Positions 13,129 to 63,083 of a stretch of 64,000 bases of DNA are shown in pieces. Each line of letters starts with the position of its first letter. Within the stretch, counting starts at the first letter, position 1. The DNA comes from Streptomyces hawaiiensis (GTDB taxonomy: Bacteria > Actinomycetota > Actinomycetes > Streptomycetales > Streptomycetaceae), in assembly GCF_004803895.1 (NCBI RefSeq), contig NZ_CP021978.1:744001-808000 (forward strand), read 5' to 3'. The position numbers and the translations under genes were made by a program. A model generated the notes under the pieces. It saw only the letters and a list, made by a program, of their open reading frames with translations, did no database searches and was not told the DNA's origin.

Positions 13129-13177
13129 CGCGTGCGTGTCCTCCACCGTCGGGGGCGATTGCCGCGGTACGGGTCGC

Positions 13178-56151: not shown

Positions 56152-56675
56152 GCACGAGGACGACGTTCGAGGACCGGCTGCTCGGTGAGCTGAAGAAGGA
56201 GATCGAGCTGCGCGGGGCCGGGCCCGGAGCGGACACGGGCAGGGCGACGGCCTCCGTGCGCCGGTTCGCCCCGCGTCGGACCGCCGTGCTGGTGGTGGCC
56301 TGTGCTGCGGCGTGGGCCGCCACGGTGGTGGTGCCCGGCTCGCCCGCCGACTCCAGCGCGTTCGCGGTGGAGCGCCACGACGACGGCAGTGTCGAACTCA
56401 CCGTCAAGGACCCGAGCTTCGGCATTGACGCCCAGCTGGCGCTGGCCGAGCGCGTGCGCCCGTGGGGCATCAAGGTGAACGTGGTCGCTCCCGAGGACGT
56501 GTGCGGCTCGTGGGGCGTCCCCCGGGTCATGGTTCTCACTCATGCGGGCGACCCCATTCGCAGCTGGCCGGTCACCCTGCGCCGGGGCAGCACGCTGGTG
56601 ATCGACAACTCCTGGGGCGAGCCGGTGTCCAAGGACGAGATCGAGCACTACGAGGTCAAGCCCTGCGACCGGTGA
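56148..56675 (+). CDS. Single-span membrane protein, possible anti-sigma partner
   Basis: Protein of 175 aa with a basic cytoplasmic N-terminus (about 1-45), one transmembrane segment (VLVVACAAAWAATVVV, 46-63) and an extracytoplasmic domain of about 110 residues. I do not recognise the outer domain; it includes a pair of Cys residues near 125 and 172 that could form a disulfide. Coupling to the sigma gene upstream and the acyltransferase downstream suggests a small signalling operon. The sigma-binding role is inference. Confidence 0.7.
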   Translation: MSTRTTFEDRLLGELKKEIELRGAGPGADTGRATASVRRFAPRRTAVLVVACAAAWAATVVVPGSPADSSAFAVERHDDGSVELTVKDPSFGIDAQLALAERVRPWGIKVNVVAPEDVCGSWGVPRVMVLTHAGDPIRSWPVTLRRGSTLVIDNSWGEPVSKDEIEHYEVKPCDR

Positions 56676-57915
56676 ACCGGCGGCTGGGCTGGCTCGACGC
56701 GTTACGCGGCCTCGCCGCACTCGTCGTGGTCTTCGACCACTCGTCCCACACCTTCATGCCGGACTTCCGGGGGAGTTGATGCCGCAGTTCAACACCAGCC
56801 GCTACGGCATCATGGTGTTCTTCCTGGTCAGCGGCTACATCATCCCGGCGTCACTGGAACGCCGGGGCTGCGTGCGGGAGTTCTGGATCGGCCGGGTCTT
56901 CCGGGTGTACCCGCTGTGGGCGGTCGTCGTCACGGTGCTGCTCGCCGTCGACTTCCTGGGACTCGTGGAGCTGCGCGGCTTCGGCGCGCAGAGCGCTGTC
57001 GCCGTGGCCGTCGCCCACACCACCATGCTCCAGGAGCTGCTGGGGACGCCCAATGTCCTGCTCGTCCTGTGGACGCTCTCGTACGAGATGTGCTTCTACC
57101 TGCTGGTCGTCGCCCTCTTCACGGTCCGGCTGCACCACCGGTCCGCGTCGGTCGCCGTAGTCCTGGCCGTGCTCGCCGTGGTGAGCGCGGTGGCGGGGGC
57201 GGTGCTGCCGGTGTCCGCGCTGTCCGGGCTGGTCGGCACCGGTCCGCTGATCGCGTTCGCGTCGATCATCATGGCGGTCGCTCTGTGCTGTGCGAGCTCC
57301 GCCTCACCGGCACTGCGGGTGTTCGGGGGTGTGCTGGGCGGAGCGCTGGCGCTCGTGCTGGTTCCGTTCAACGGCACGGTCCCGTTGTGGGAGGGCCTGG
57401 TGATCCTCGCCGTCATGTTCCTCGGTACCGCGGTCCACCGAGCCGAGCGCGGACAGAGCACCTGGCACCGGGCCGCGGTCGCCGCGGCCCTGGTGGTTGT
57501 CTGTGCCGTCGGAAGCGCCTACCGGTACGGCGACGGCCACCACTTCACACGGCGCGGCTGGATCGTGGCGTTCCTGCTGGCCGTGCTCACCTTCGCTGCC
57601 GGACTGTCGCGGCGCCACCGGCTCGTACCGCGGCTGCTGACCGGTCTGGGAGCGATCAGCTACTCGGTCTATCTCGTGCACCCGGTGCTGCTGGCGGTGA
57701 TCGACGGCACCGTCGGCCGCAGGCGCGACGACCACGTCGTACTCGAAGTGGCCTTCTTCACCCTCCTGTTGCCGCTGTGCGTCCTGACCCACCGGTACGT
57801 CGAGGTCCCGGGCCAGGCCTGGGGTCGCAGGCTGGCGTACCGGTCGGGTGGTCAGGTGTCGAAGTCCACCGTCAACGCATCGGACACCGGGAACGACTGG
57901 CACGTGAGGACGTAG
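56672..57915 (+). pseudogene. Acyltransferase family 3 gene, frameshifted
   Basis: Membrane O-acyltransferase of the acyltransferase 3 group. The start (GTG overlapping the previous stop) gives RLGWLDALRGLAALVVVFDH and MPDFRG, then a TGA at 56777. The rest continues in another frame from 56779: QFNTSRYGIMVFFLVSGYI, ASLERRGCVREFWIGRVFR, and about ten helices to GAISYSVYLVHPVLLAVID. One extra G in the GGGGG run at about 56769-56773 would join both parts (FRG-E-L-M-PQF). The restored protein would be about 414 aa, normal for the family. The catalytic-type His of VVFDHS lies in the short first part, so the downstream part alone should be inactive. Confidence 0.8.
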
Positions 57916-58966
57916 CCCGCGTCGACCTCGGACGGTTCGAGGGCGAAGTTGCGGCGCATGTCGGCCTTGCCGTCGGTGACCTGGGCGCGGCAGGTGCCGC
58001 AGACGCCGCCCTTGCAGGCGAAGGGCAGGTCGGGGCGGGTCTGCTGGGCGCCTTCGAGGATGCTGCGGTCGCGGGACAGGGGGACGTGGTGGAGCGGCCG
58101 TCGAGGGTGACGGTGACCTGGCTGACCGGGCCGGTGGGGCCCGTCTCGGTGTGGTGGACCTCGCGGACGGGCTCGTCGTCGGCGTAGAAGAGTTCCTGGT
58201 GGACGCGGTCGGCGGGCACGCCGAGGCCGGTCAGGACCTGCTGGGCGGCGCGGACCATGCCGTGCGGGCCGCACAGCCACCAGTGGTCGGCAAACTCCAC
58301 GCCGACCAGCGCGTCGACGAGGGCGGAGAGCCGCTCGGCGTCGAGGCGGCCGGAGAGCACCTCGGCCTCGCGGGGCTCGCGGGAGAGGACGTGGGCGAGC
58401 TGGAACCGCGTGGGGTAGAGGTCCTTCAGGTCGGCGAGTTCGTCGGCGAACATCACCGTGCCGGTGCGGCGGTTGCCGTAGAGGAGGGTGACGCGCGAGC
58501 GGGAGTCGGCGGCCAGGACGGACTCGGCGATGGAGACCATGGGCGTGATGCCGGAACCGGCGGCGATCAGGACGTGGTGGCCGTGGGTGGTGAGGTCGGG
58601 CGTGAAGGCGCCGGTGGGTGCCATCACCTCGACGGTGTCGCCGGGGCGTACGTCGTGCACCAGCCAGGAGGAGAACAGGCCGCCCGGCACGACCCGGACG
58701 CCGATGCGCGGCGCTGTGCCGGCGGGTGCGCAGATCGAGTACGAGCGGCGCTCGTCCCGGCCGTCGATGTCACGGCGCAGGGTGAGCGACTGGCCGGGCG
58801 CGAAGGTGAACTCCTCGGCCAGCTCGGCCGGGATGTCGAAGCTCACAGCTGCCGCGTCCTCGCACAGCGGCTGCACGGCGGCGACCCGCAGGGGGTGGAA
58901 GACCGGACGTCGGCGGGCACTCGGGCGTGCCGCCGGGGCGGGGGCCGGCTCCATCAGGTCCTCCAT
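57852..58966 (-). pseudogene. paaE: paaE, ring-1,2-epoxidase reductase, frameshifted
   Basis: Reductase subunit of phenylacetyl-CoA epoxidase. The first frame carries the FAD domain (ERRSYSICAPAG), the NAD(P) domain (HVLIAAGSGITPMVSIAESVL, GNRRTGTVMFADEL) and reaches VTVTLDGRSTT. The 2Fe-2S ferredoxin domain (LPFACKGGVCGTCRAQV, YVLTCQSFPVSD) continues in another frame. Restoring one base near 58085 (a C on the + strand) joins them as RSTT-V-PLSRDRSILEG. Without it the protein lacks its iron-sulphur domain and could not pass electrons to PaaA. AAGGAGA precedes the ATG at 58966. Confidence 0.85.
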
Positions 58967-59481
58967 CAGATCTCCTTGAGGTACTCGAACGGCTCGCGGC
59001 AGGCGAGGCAGCGCCACAGGGACTTGCAGGACGTGGCGCCGAAGCGGGAGGTCTCCTCGGTGTCGGGGTGACCGCAGCGGGGGCAGGGCACCGAGCGTCG
59101 GGCCGGCGACAGCACGAGCGGGACCGGGCCGGTGGCGCGCGCCGGTGCGGCGCCGGGCGGGGCGATGCCGTGCTCGGCGAGCTTGCGCCGGCCGGCCGCC
59201 GTGATCCAGTCACTGCTCCACGGCGGGTCGAGGACCGTGCGGATCTCCACGCGCGCGTACCCCGCCTCGCGCAGCCGGGCGGCCACGCCGGCACGCATCT
59301 CCGCCATCGCCGGGCAGCCCGAGTAGGTCGGGGTCAGGCTCGCGACCACCGTTCCCTCCGGGGTCAGCGACACCTCGCGCAGCACTCCGAGGTCGGCCAG
59401 CGTGAGCATGGGCAGTTCGGGGTCGGGCACCTGCTCGGCGATGCGCCGGGCCCGTCGCGCGTCCGGGAGTGCCGTCACCAT
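58966..59481 (-). CDS. paaD: Phenylacetyl-CoA epoxidase subunit PaaD
   Basis: PaaD (171 aa), needed for maturation of the PaaABCE monooxygenase. An N-terminal MIP18/DUF59-like domain (VPDPELPMLTLADLGVLREV, LTPTYSGCPAMAEM) precedes a C-terminal metal-binding tail with CPRCGHPDT and LWRCLACREPFEYLKEI, the two Cys pairs expected for PaaD. The ATG at 59481 and a GTG one codon on both overlap the paaC stop. Confidence 0.92.
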   Translation of the reverse strand: MVTALPDARRARRIAEQVPDPELPMLTLADLGVLREVSLTPEGTVVASLTPTYSGCPAMAEMRAGVAARLREAGYARVEIRTVLDPPWSSDWITAAGRRKLAEHGIAPPGAAPARATGPVPLVLSPARRSVPCPRCGHPDTEETSRFGATSCKSLWRCLACREPFEYLKEI

Positions 59482-60302
59482 GACGCCTCCGGGTGGGCGC
59501 GGGCCACACCCTGCAACTCGGCCAGCAGCGGGGCGAGATGCTCGGTGTGCTCGCCTGCGCGGCCCGAGCCGGGCAGCGGGCGGTAGACGGGCATGGGCAG
59601 CCCGGCCGCCTCGGTGACCTGGCGCAGGACGGCGACGACCTCGTCGCGGACGTCGTACGCCGTGAACAGCTCGCCCAGGTAGGGCGCCACCTGTTCCTGC
59701 GCCTTGCGCATCCGGCGGTGCGACTCCTCGGTGCCGTCGCCGAGGCGCACGGCCCACTCGGCCGCGTACTGGCGGTGGTACGCCAGCTCCTTCACGCCCT
59801 TGGCGGCGATCGCCGCGAGCACCGGGTCTCCGTGTGCGGTGAGCCGCTCGAAGTGCGCGAGGCGCCAGCCGGCGAACACCAGCAGCCGCACGATGGTGAA
59901 CGCGAAGTCGCCATTGGGGAGTTCGGCCAGGCGTACGTTGCGGAAGTCGCCGGCGTCACGGAAGTAGGCGTAGGCGTCCTCGCCGCGGCCGGTGCCGTCG
60001 ACCTGGCCCGCGCGGGAGTAGAGCAGACGGGCCTGGCCGAGCAGGTCGAGCCCGATGTTGGCCAGCGCCACCTCCTCCTCCAGCTCGGGGGCGCGGGTGG
60101 TCCACTCGGCGAGCCGCTGGGCGGCGACCAAGGCGTCGTCGGCCAAGGTCACGCAGAGGGCGGCCAGTTCACCGGCGTCCACACCCTCGGGTAGGGCGGT
60201 GTCCACGCCGTGCAGGGGGTCCTCGAAGCCGGTGCCGTAGGCCCAGCGGGTGTCGTCCTCGTGTCCCTCGGCGAGGGTCATGTAGACGTGGTCGTCGCTC
60301 AT
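59475..60302 (-). CDS. paaC: Phenylacetyl-CoA epoxidase subunit PaaC
   Basis: Structural, ferritin-like subunit of the epoxidase (275 aa) that pairs with catalytic PaaA. Helical throughout; NIGLDLLGQARLLYSRAGQ, DFAFTIVRLLVFAGWRLAHFERL and KELAYHRQYAAEWAVRLGDG are the family marks, with remnants of the di-iron helices. Ten bases separate it from paaB. Confidence 0.93.
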   Translation of the reverse strand: MSDDHVYMTLAEGHEDDTRWAYGTGFEDPLHGVDTALPEGVDAGELAALCVTLADDALVAAQRLAEWTTRAPELEEEVALANIGLDLLGQARLLYSRAGQVDGTGRGEDAYAYFRDAGDFRNVRLAELPNGDFAFTIVRLLVFAGWRLAHFERLTAHGDPVLAAIAAKGVKELAYHRQYAAEWAVRLGDGTEESHRRMRKAQEQVAPYLGELFTAYDVRDEVVAVLRQVTEAAGLPMPVYRPLPGSGRAGEHTEHLAPLLAELQGVARAHPEASW

Positions 60303-60312
60303 GCCCTGTCCT

Positions 60313-60606
60313 TCAGATGTGGGGGACGTCGTCGGGGATGTCGTAGAAGGTCGGGTGCCGGTAGACCTTGTCGGCGCTGGGCTCGAAGAAGGGGTCCTTC
60401 TCGTCGCGGGTGGAGGCGGCGATGTGCTCGGAGCGCACGACCCAGATCGAGACGCCCTCGTTGCGCCGGGTGTACAGGTCGCGGGCGTGGGTGAGCGCCA
60501 TGCGGTCGTCGGCGGCGTGCAGCGAGCCCACGTGGACGTGGTTCAGCCCGCGCTTGCCGCGCACGAACACCTCGTACAGCGGCCAGTCCTGCTTGTCGGC
60601 GGTCAT
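60313..60606 (-). CDS. paaB: Phenylacetyl-CoA epoxidase subunit PaaB
   Basis: Small subunit (97 aa) bridging PaaA-PaaC dimers. [26 protein letters not shown] and [20 protein letters not shown] are diagnostic. ATG overlaps the paaA stop. Confidence 0.93.
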
Positions 60607-61727: not shown

Positions 61728-63083
61728 ATGACCAGCGAGACGACGGCCTCCCGGGCGCCGGAGCCGATGGGGCAGCGGCGCGGTGAGCCCCTCCCCCACG
61801 ATCTGCTCGACGACGCGGAGCGCCTGACGCGCGAGCAGCTGCGGGAGCTCCAGCTCGACCGCCTGCGCCGGAGCCTGCGACACGCCTACGACAACGTGGA
61901 GGCGTACCGCGAGAAGTTCGACGCGGCCGGGGTCTGCCCCGACGACTGCCGCTCGCTGGCGGACCTGTCCCGTTTCCCCTTCACCATGAAGGCCGATCTG
62001 AGGGACACCTACCCGTTCGGCATGTTCGCCGTGCCCATGGACCAAGTGCGGCGCGTGCACGCCTCCAGCGGCACCACCGGCCGCCCCACGGTGGTCGGCT
62101 ACACGGAGAACGACCTGTCGATGTGGGCGGGCCTCGTCGCCCGTTCGATCCGCGCCGCCGGCGGCCGCCCGGGTCACAAGGTGCACATCTCCTACGGCTA
62201 CGGGCTGTTCACCGGCGGGCTCGGCGCGCACTACGGCGCGGAGCGCGCCGGCTGCCTGGTGATCCCGGCCTCCGGGGGCATGACCGCGCGCCAGGTGCAG
62301 ATCATCCAGGACTTCCGGCCCGAGATCGTCATGGTCACCCCGTCCTACATGCTCACCCTGCTCGACGAGTTCGAACGGCAGGGCATCGACCCGCGCGGCA
62401 GCAGTCTGCGGGTGGGCATCTTCGGTGCCGAGCCGTGGACGGAGGAGATGCGCCGCGAGATCGAGGAGCGGACGGACATCCACGCCGTCGACATATACGG
62501 CCTGTCCGAGGTGATCGGTCCCGGTGTCGCCCAGGAGTGCGTGGAGACCAAGGACGGACTGCACGTGTGGGAGGACCACTTCTACCCCGAGGTCGTCGAC
62601 CCGGTCACGGGTGAGGTGCTGCCCGAGGGCGAGGAGGGCGAGCTGGTCTTCACGTCCCTGACCAAGGAGGCCCTGCCGGTCGTCCGCTACCGCACCCGCG
62701 ATCTGACCCGGCTGCTGCCCGGCACGGCCCGGCCCGCGTTCCGCCGCATCCAGAAGATCACCGGGCGCTGCGACGACATGATCATCCTGCGCGGGGTGAA
62801 CGTCTTCCCCAGCCAGATCGAGGAGATCGTGCTGCGCACGCCAGGCGTCGCCCCGCACTTCCAGATCCGGCTGACCCGGCGCGGCCGCCTGGACCACATG
62901 ACCGTCCTCGTCGAGACCCGCCCCGGCGCTGGCCCCGAGCAGCGCGAAGCCGCAGCCGGGACGATCGCGAAGGCCGTCAAGGGCGGCATCGGCATCACCG
63001 CCGACGTGACGATCGTCGAACCGGAGACCCTGGAGCGCTCCGTCGGCAAACTCCGCCGGGTCAAGGACCTGCGCGAGGCGTGA
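61728..63083 (+). CDS. paaK: Phenylacetate-CoA ligase
   Basis: AMP-forming ligase (451 aa) activating phenylacetate to its CoA thioester, the first step of the pathway. The P-loop-like HASSGTTGRPTVVGYT, GAEPWTEEMR, IYGLSEVIGPGVAQEC and the C-terminal hinge GRCDDMIILRGVNVFPSQIEE are the PaaK family marks. AAGGAG lies seven bases before the ATG. Divergent from paaABCDE over a 138-base gap; TAGCAT at 61694 is a possible -10, with no good -35. Downstream ring-opening genes (paaG, paaZ and others) are not in the window. Confidence 0.94.
   Translation: MTSETTASRAPEPMGQRRGEPLPHDLLDDAERLTREQLRELQLDRLRRSLRHAYDNVEAYREKFDAAGVCPDDCRSLADLSRFPFTMKADLRDTYPFGMFAVPMDQVRRVHASSGTTGRPTVVGYTENDLSMWAGLVARSIRAAGGRPGHKVHISYGYGLFTGGLGAHYGAERAGCLVIPASGGMTARQVQIIQDFRPEIVMVTPSYMLTLLDEFERQGIDPRGSSLRVGIFGAEPWTEEMRREIEERTDIHAVDIYGLSEVIGPGVAQECVETKDGLHVWEDHFYPEVVDPVTGEVLPEGEEGELVFTSLTKEALPVVRYRTRDLTRLLPGTARPAFRRIQKITGRCDDMIILRGVNVFPSQIEEIVLRTPGVAPHFQIRLTRRGRLDHMTVLVETRPGAGPEQREAAAGTIAKAVKGGIGITADVTIVEPETLERSVGKLRRVKDLREA

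Follow-up and report, generated by a model that had tools for sequence, protein, structure and literature searches.

The window, by which we mean the whole 64,000-nucleotide stretch of Streptomyces hawaiiensis DNA that was analysed, carries a paaABCDE operon arrangement, in which paaE lies directly downstream of paaA, paaB, paaC and paaD on the same strand. A divergent paaK and, tail-to-tail with paaE and transcribed in the opposite direction, an unrelated gene of the acyltransferase-3 family are also present (Table 1). PaaA, B, C, D and PaaK all exceed their NCBIfam cut-offs, in accordance with an earlier note on this DNA, which had described the remaining paa subunits as intact. No promoter or terminator was found in a scan of positions 57700-58400.

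Table 1. Features of the paa locus and of the adjoining acyltransferase gene (positions in the window)
Feature	Position	Strand	Remarks
paaE, whole gene	58966-57852	minus	directly after paaA, B, C, D
paaE upstream frame, FAD-binding and NAD-binding domains	58085..58966	minus	PF00970, PF00175; TIGR02160 1-273
Frame break, run of five C (GGGGG on the plus strand)	58079..58083	minus	one base missing relative to 79/79 readable relatives
paaE downstream frame, C-terminal 2Fe-2S domain	57852..58079	minus	PF00111; TIGR02160 277-352
Stop codon of the upstream frame as deposited	57872..57874	minus	364 aa product
Acyltransferase-3 family gene, in one frame at the N-terminal end and in another thereafter	56672..57915	plus	start by eye from relatives
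Run of five G in the acyltransferase gene	56769..56773	plus	second single base missing (gap at 56770)
paaD	58966..59484	minus	intact, start codon not fixed; TIGR02159 200.6 bits, cut-off 108.15
paaC	59475..60302	minus	intact; TIGR02158 227.8 bits, cut-off 133.35
paaB	60313..60600	minus	intact; TIGR02157 164.9 bits, cut-off 85.45
paaA	60603..61613	minus	intact; TIGR02156 508.9 bits, cut-off 280
paaK, phenylacetate-CoA ligase, divergent	61728..63083	plus	intact; TIGR02155 683.7 bits, cut-off 646.3

The frame break of paaE is present in the deposited sequence as the earlier note described it. The FAD- and NAD-binding domains typical of class IA reductases are both found above the cut-off (PF00970 and PF00175) in the upstream frame. 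The 2Fe-2S domain is recognized as well (PF00111, Fer2, 54.3 bits), but in the other frame, where four cysteines spaced CX4CX2CX29C can be located by eye. The PaaE profile TIGR02160 is divided in the same manner, its positions 1-273 matching the first frame with 397.3 bits and its positions 277-352 the second with 128.1 bits (400.1 and 126.5 bits in the genome search). Both halves are under the curated cut-off of 420.8, below which many intact Streptomyces paaE copies score as well. Judged from these matches, little seems to be missing from paaE except the register between the two frames. The first frame as deposited has 364 residues, of which the final ~70 are out of register. The Pfam and TIGR02160 matches thus bear out the proposal that a paaE at 57852-58966 is broken between its NAD and 2Fe-2S domains. 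The break had been placed near 58085; the loss of a single base at the C run stands, but the position was a few bases off, the gap being at 58082 within the run.

The relatives compared were the best 80 of 521 confirmed loci from one scan of the genome collection, with 77-97% protein identity over the best segment. L062, in which a contig ends inside paaE, was left out of the site comparison, so that 79 of the 80 were readable. In all 79, paaE reads through the site in a single open frame and is nowhere broken or split there, and in the nucleotide alignment the window has a gap at 58082 where a base is present in every one of them. The relatives, with one base more and a single open frame, agree with the earlier claim that one added base restores a full, conserved protein. 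The break site was covered by 13 of 13 sequences in the comparison with close relatives, and the gap was scored at 58080 or 58082 in 11 of them. At ~95% identity in DNA, the nearest paaE relatives are those of S. iakyrus (L055) and S. massasporeus (L050). Their PaaE (TIGR02160) has the same domain order (FAD, NAD, 2Fe-2S) and the same place after paaABCD, whereas the window has one base fewer in the C run, which changes the frame before the 2Fe-2S domain. PaaA-D are all matched on the paaE strand, irrespective of order, in 71 of the 80 relatives' loci; among those of the other nine that were looked into, several are short and one contains runs of N.

We then considered the age of the break by counting codons private to the window in a comparison with 15 close relatives, among which L055 lacks the opening part of paaA. 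Beyond the break, the final 76 codons of paaE contain one private amino-acid change and one private silent change, whereas the first 294 codons contain three and five, and paaA, B, C and D together eight and 11, respectively. The same count for the final part of paaE in six intact relatives of the 15 gave 0-1 amino-acid and 0-2 silent changes. The only private amino-acid change past the break affects the second codon after it, where proline is replaced by serine, a residue also found there in more distant Streptomyces. By these counts, the part of paaE beyond the break shows no decay, and the break is accordingly either very young or absent from the cell.

The neighbouring acyltransferase gene carries a lesion of the same kind, which the earlier note had not noticed. 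PF01757 is matched in the downstream frame alone, starting at profile position 42, and one base more is present at 56770 in the three homologues compared; a fourth, more distant match is known and was not among them. Loci L050 and L131 belong to one of the genomes concerned, L054 and L130 to another and L137 to a third. The homologues differ at that place, and the identity of the base lost is accordingly presumptive. Two of the 80 paaE loci contain a match to this gene that covers 80% or more of its length. This loss lies 1.3 kb from the paaE break, so two unrelated genes running in opposite directions are each affected. A third lone loss, of a C, was detected against one relative (G066) at 4,146,782 (L239, G000:C1), in an otherwise clean gene that by eye encodes an FAD-type oxidoreductase. 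These three lone-base differences, found in roughly 300 kb of DNA aligned with G061, G064 and G066, are all losses, with no gain. Such a set, with every loss in a clean gene and two of the three only 1.3 kb apart, has the look of sequencing errors that were left uncorrected.

The scans behind these figures were not uniform. A first pairwise indel scan with strict filters found the paaE break and missed that at 56770; the filters were loosened once the latter was known, so the loosened counts are not blind and include false calls. With the final filters, 142 kb aligned to G064 gave only the paaE and 56770 breaks and a call at window position 13169, which by eye is false, as two neighbouring gaps cancel. 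For the core comparison, a first anchor with short matches at several places was dropped and a second one used. Cases of this kind occur in the relatives as well. Broken cases in the aligned core DNA (159 kb) numbered one in the window genome and three in G066, with one in the core of G061. Near the window, G064 had one against the window genome and one against G066, and G066 had one against the window genome and two, close together, against G064.

To evaluate how error-prone the genome looks, a frame-switch model was applied to 684 kb of it and to stretches of six others, and no excess of frame breaks was found. Around the window, 284 kb yielded 10 candidates (3.5 per 100 kb), and a 400 kb sample of the genome yielded seven (1.7), compared with 2.3-4.3 per 100 kb in G061, G064, G066, G007 and G013 and 9.8 in G009. 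A stricter count gave 2.1 and 1.2 here, 0.8-2.5 in the five genomes and 2.7 in G009, which on this measure hardly stands out. The 56770 break was not listed by the model, probably because 120 bases of one frame were demanded on each side. Only four of the 17 candidates in the window genome lie at most 45 bases from a G/C run of five or more, and ~3 would be expected by chance (hand estimate). Likewise, no genome-wide contraction of homopolymers was apparent as a depletion of G/C runs of six, with 23-29 per 100 kb here vs 22-32 in relatives. Runs of seven (~3 in 684 kb here vs ~9 in 532 kb of three relatives) are too few to be used, and among single-base differences in run length over three relatives, the window genome was the longer 14 times and the shorter five times. 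The frame is also broken in the otherwise conserved paaE of G009 (L204, G009:C1:552500-553600); however, that gene changes frame several times, whereas the window paaE breaks once and its genome has the lower looser count. The G009 assembly may be indel-rich and its breaks errors. Our literature search on homopolymer frameshifts and Nanopore polishing in Streptomyces found nothing to the point.

Taken together, we consider that the paaE break is a sequencing or assembly error with a probability of roughly 0.55; of the ways out named in the earlier note, a wrong sequence is thus the leading one. The gene would then be an ordinary Streptomyces paaE that is one base short, at a G/C run, in the deposited sequence; the missing base would be an error left over where local correction was poor, and the strain itself would make a normal PaaE. 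This reading is favoured by the second lone loss 1.3 kb away and by the third in a core gene, and the lack of decay beyond the break and the intact state of paaA-D and paaK were also counted for it. Our inference is that the losses affect only the deposited sequence and that the cell has the bases. The lack of a genome-wide excess of frame breaks and of any depletion of six-base runs speaks against an error, and also fits a fresh mutation. To a real, very recent single-base loss in paaE we give somewhat less than an even chance. Short G/C runs commonly contract by spontaneous mutation, the genome is not marked as poor by any surplus of frame breaks, and an independent lesion in the PaaA of S. 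iakyrus (see later in the text) suggests that the epoxidase may be dispensable near this strain. However, the rest of paaE and paaA-D are without decay, none of the 79 readable relatives has the break, and the same kind of lesion is present 1.3 kb away in an unrelated neighbour. If the loss were real, the product would be 364 aa long, with its FAD and NAD domains followed by a scrambled tail and without the 2Fe-2S cluster; PaaABC would receive few or no electrons, and the phenylacetyl-CoA formed by PaaK would not be epoxidised. It is improbable that the break is not only real but also belongs to a series of independent events by which this Streptomyces clade lost the phenylacetyl-CoA epoxidase, so that the phenylacetyl-CoA made by PaaK would not undergo ring epoxidation or the epoxidase would borrow another reductase.

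The earlier note had also raised slippage at the CCCCC run as a way out, whereby -1 ribosomal slippage or transcriptional slippage would restore the frame in the cell and yield some full-length PaaE. The upstream frame does need a -1 shift, and its CCC codon is preceded by C, so that from the sequence one tRNA could re-pair. However, the C run is only five bases long and PaaE is encoded in one frame in 79 of 79 readable relatives. Moreover, among the 29 relatives with printed DNA the site varies (e.g. TCCCCG, TCCCCCC, TCCGCC), which indicates that there is no conserved slippery run. Nor was a stimulatory structure found, the RNA around and after the site folding no better than shuffles (z 0.25; 116 bases, 200 shuffles). 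We therefore regard slippage as very improbable. Still less credible is a PaaE that is made and works in two pieces, with the flavin half and the ferredoxin half as proteins of their own. Each half has its own domains, but a split at the site is seen in 0 of the 79 readable relatives, and the downstream half lacks a good start codon: the only ATG, GTG or TTG codons of the downstream frame before the 2Fe-2S match are the GTGs at 58280 and 58274. These lie ~200 bases upstream, in the coding sequence of the other frame, and would prepend ~65 unrelated residues; the other start options are a CTG at 58079 and an ATG far inside the 2Fe-2S domain. Even together, recoding and split function are highly unlikely, and recoding is not required to explain any observation at paaE. 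The gene is a known one and its lesion of an ordinary kind, with no sign of a new mechanism.

A second paaE, which had been suggested as another possible explanation, is not supported. The assembly consists of one contig (8,876,928 bases, with a completeness rating of 99.99%), and a genome-wide TIGR02160 search gave, after the two halves, a next match of 88.4 bits against the cut-off of 420.8. PaaA (TIGR02156) likewise has a single match in the whole genome, and nothing in the genome is above the cut-off for the fused type of PaaZ (best 138.7 vs 562.8). Further ferredoxin-reductase-like matches are present (listed, some translated).

The PaaE product would act as a class IA reductase, in which electrons taken from NAD(P)H travel via FAD and the 2Fe-2S cluster to the di-iron site of PaaA. 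Two published studies (PMC4498308, PMC9493321) describe a protein with FAD, NADPH and 2Fe-2S domains that is required for the epoxidase reaction in vitro, being essential for the overall reaction although no other component is bound so weakly in the complex. The earlier conclusion that the epoxidase would lack its electron donor follows from this requirement if the lesion is real. The relevant portion of a report on S. rimosus (PMC10612213) gives PaaE expression and frameshift counts and names no paaE lesion. For annotation, the epoxidase of this genome should not be scored as lost or working from the deposited sequence alone. If the break is real, the strain would offer a natural paaE-null Streptomyces for asking whether another reductase can feed PaaABC.

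Several oddities were seen elsewhere. PaaA of S. iakyrus NRRL ISP-5482 (L055:3546-4361) lacks residues 83-146 in frame (64 residues), including the EAGHG segment, which we take to have a role as di-iron ligand. Unless the deletion is an assembly collapse, this hints at one or more losses of the epoxidase in a near relative. In the window genome, a gene that by eye resembles fumarylacetoacetate hydrolase, near G000:C1 873158, shows one frame change, with no G/C run of at least five within 45 bases. Finally, a 44 kb stretch of one contig of Streptomyces sp. NBC_00620 contains three paaE loci (L103, L104 and L108), whose identity is 100% over 6-10 kb. L104 and L108 show no PaaA match of 80% or more in length; this fits either a tandem amplification or an assembly artefact.
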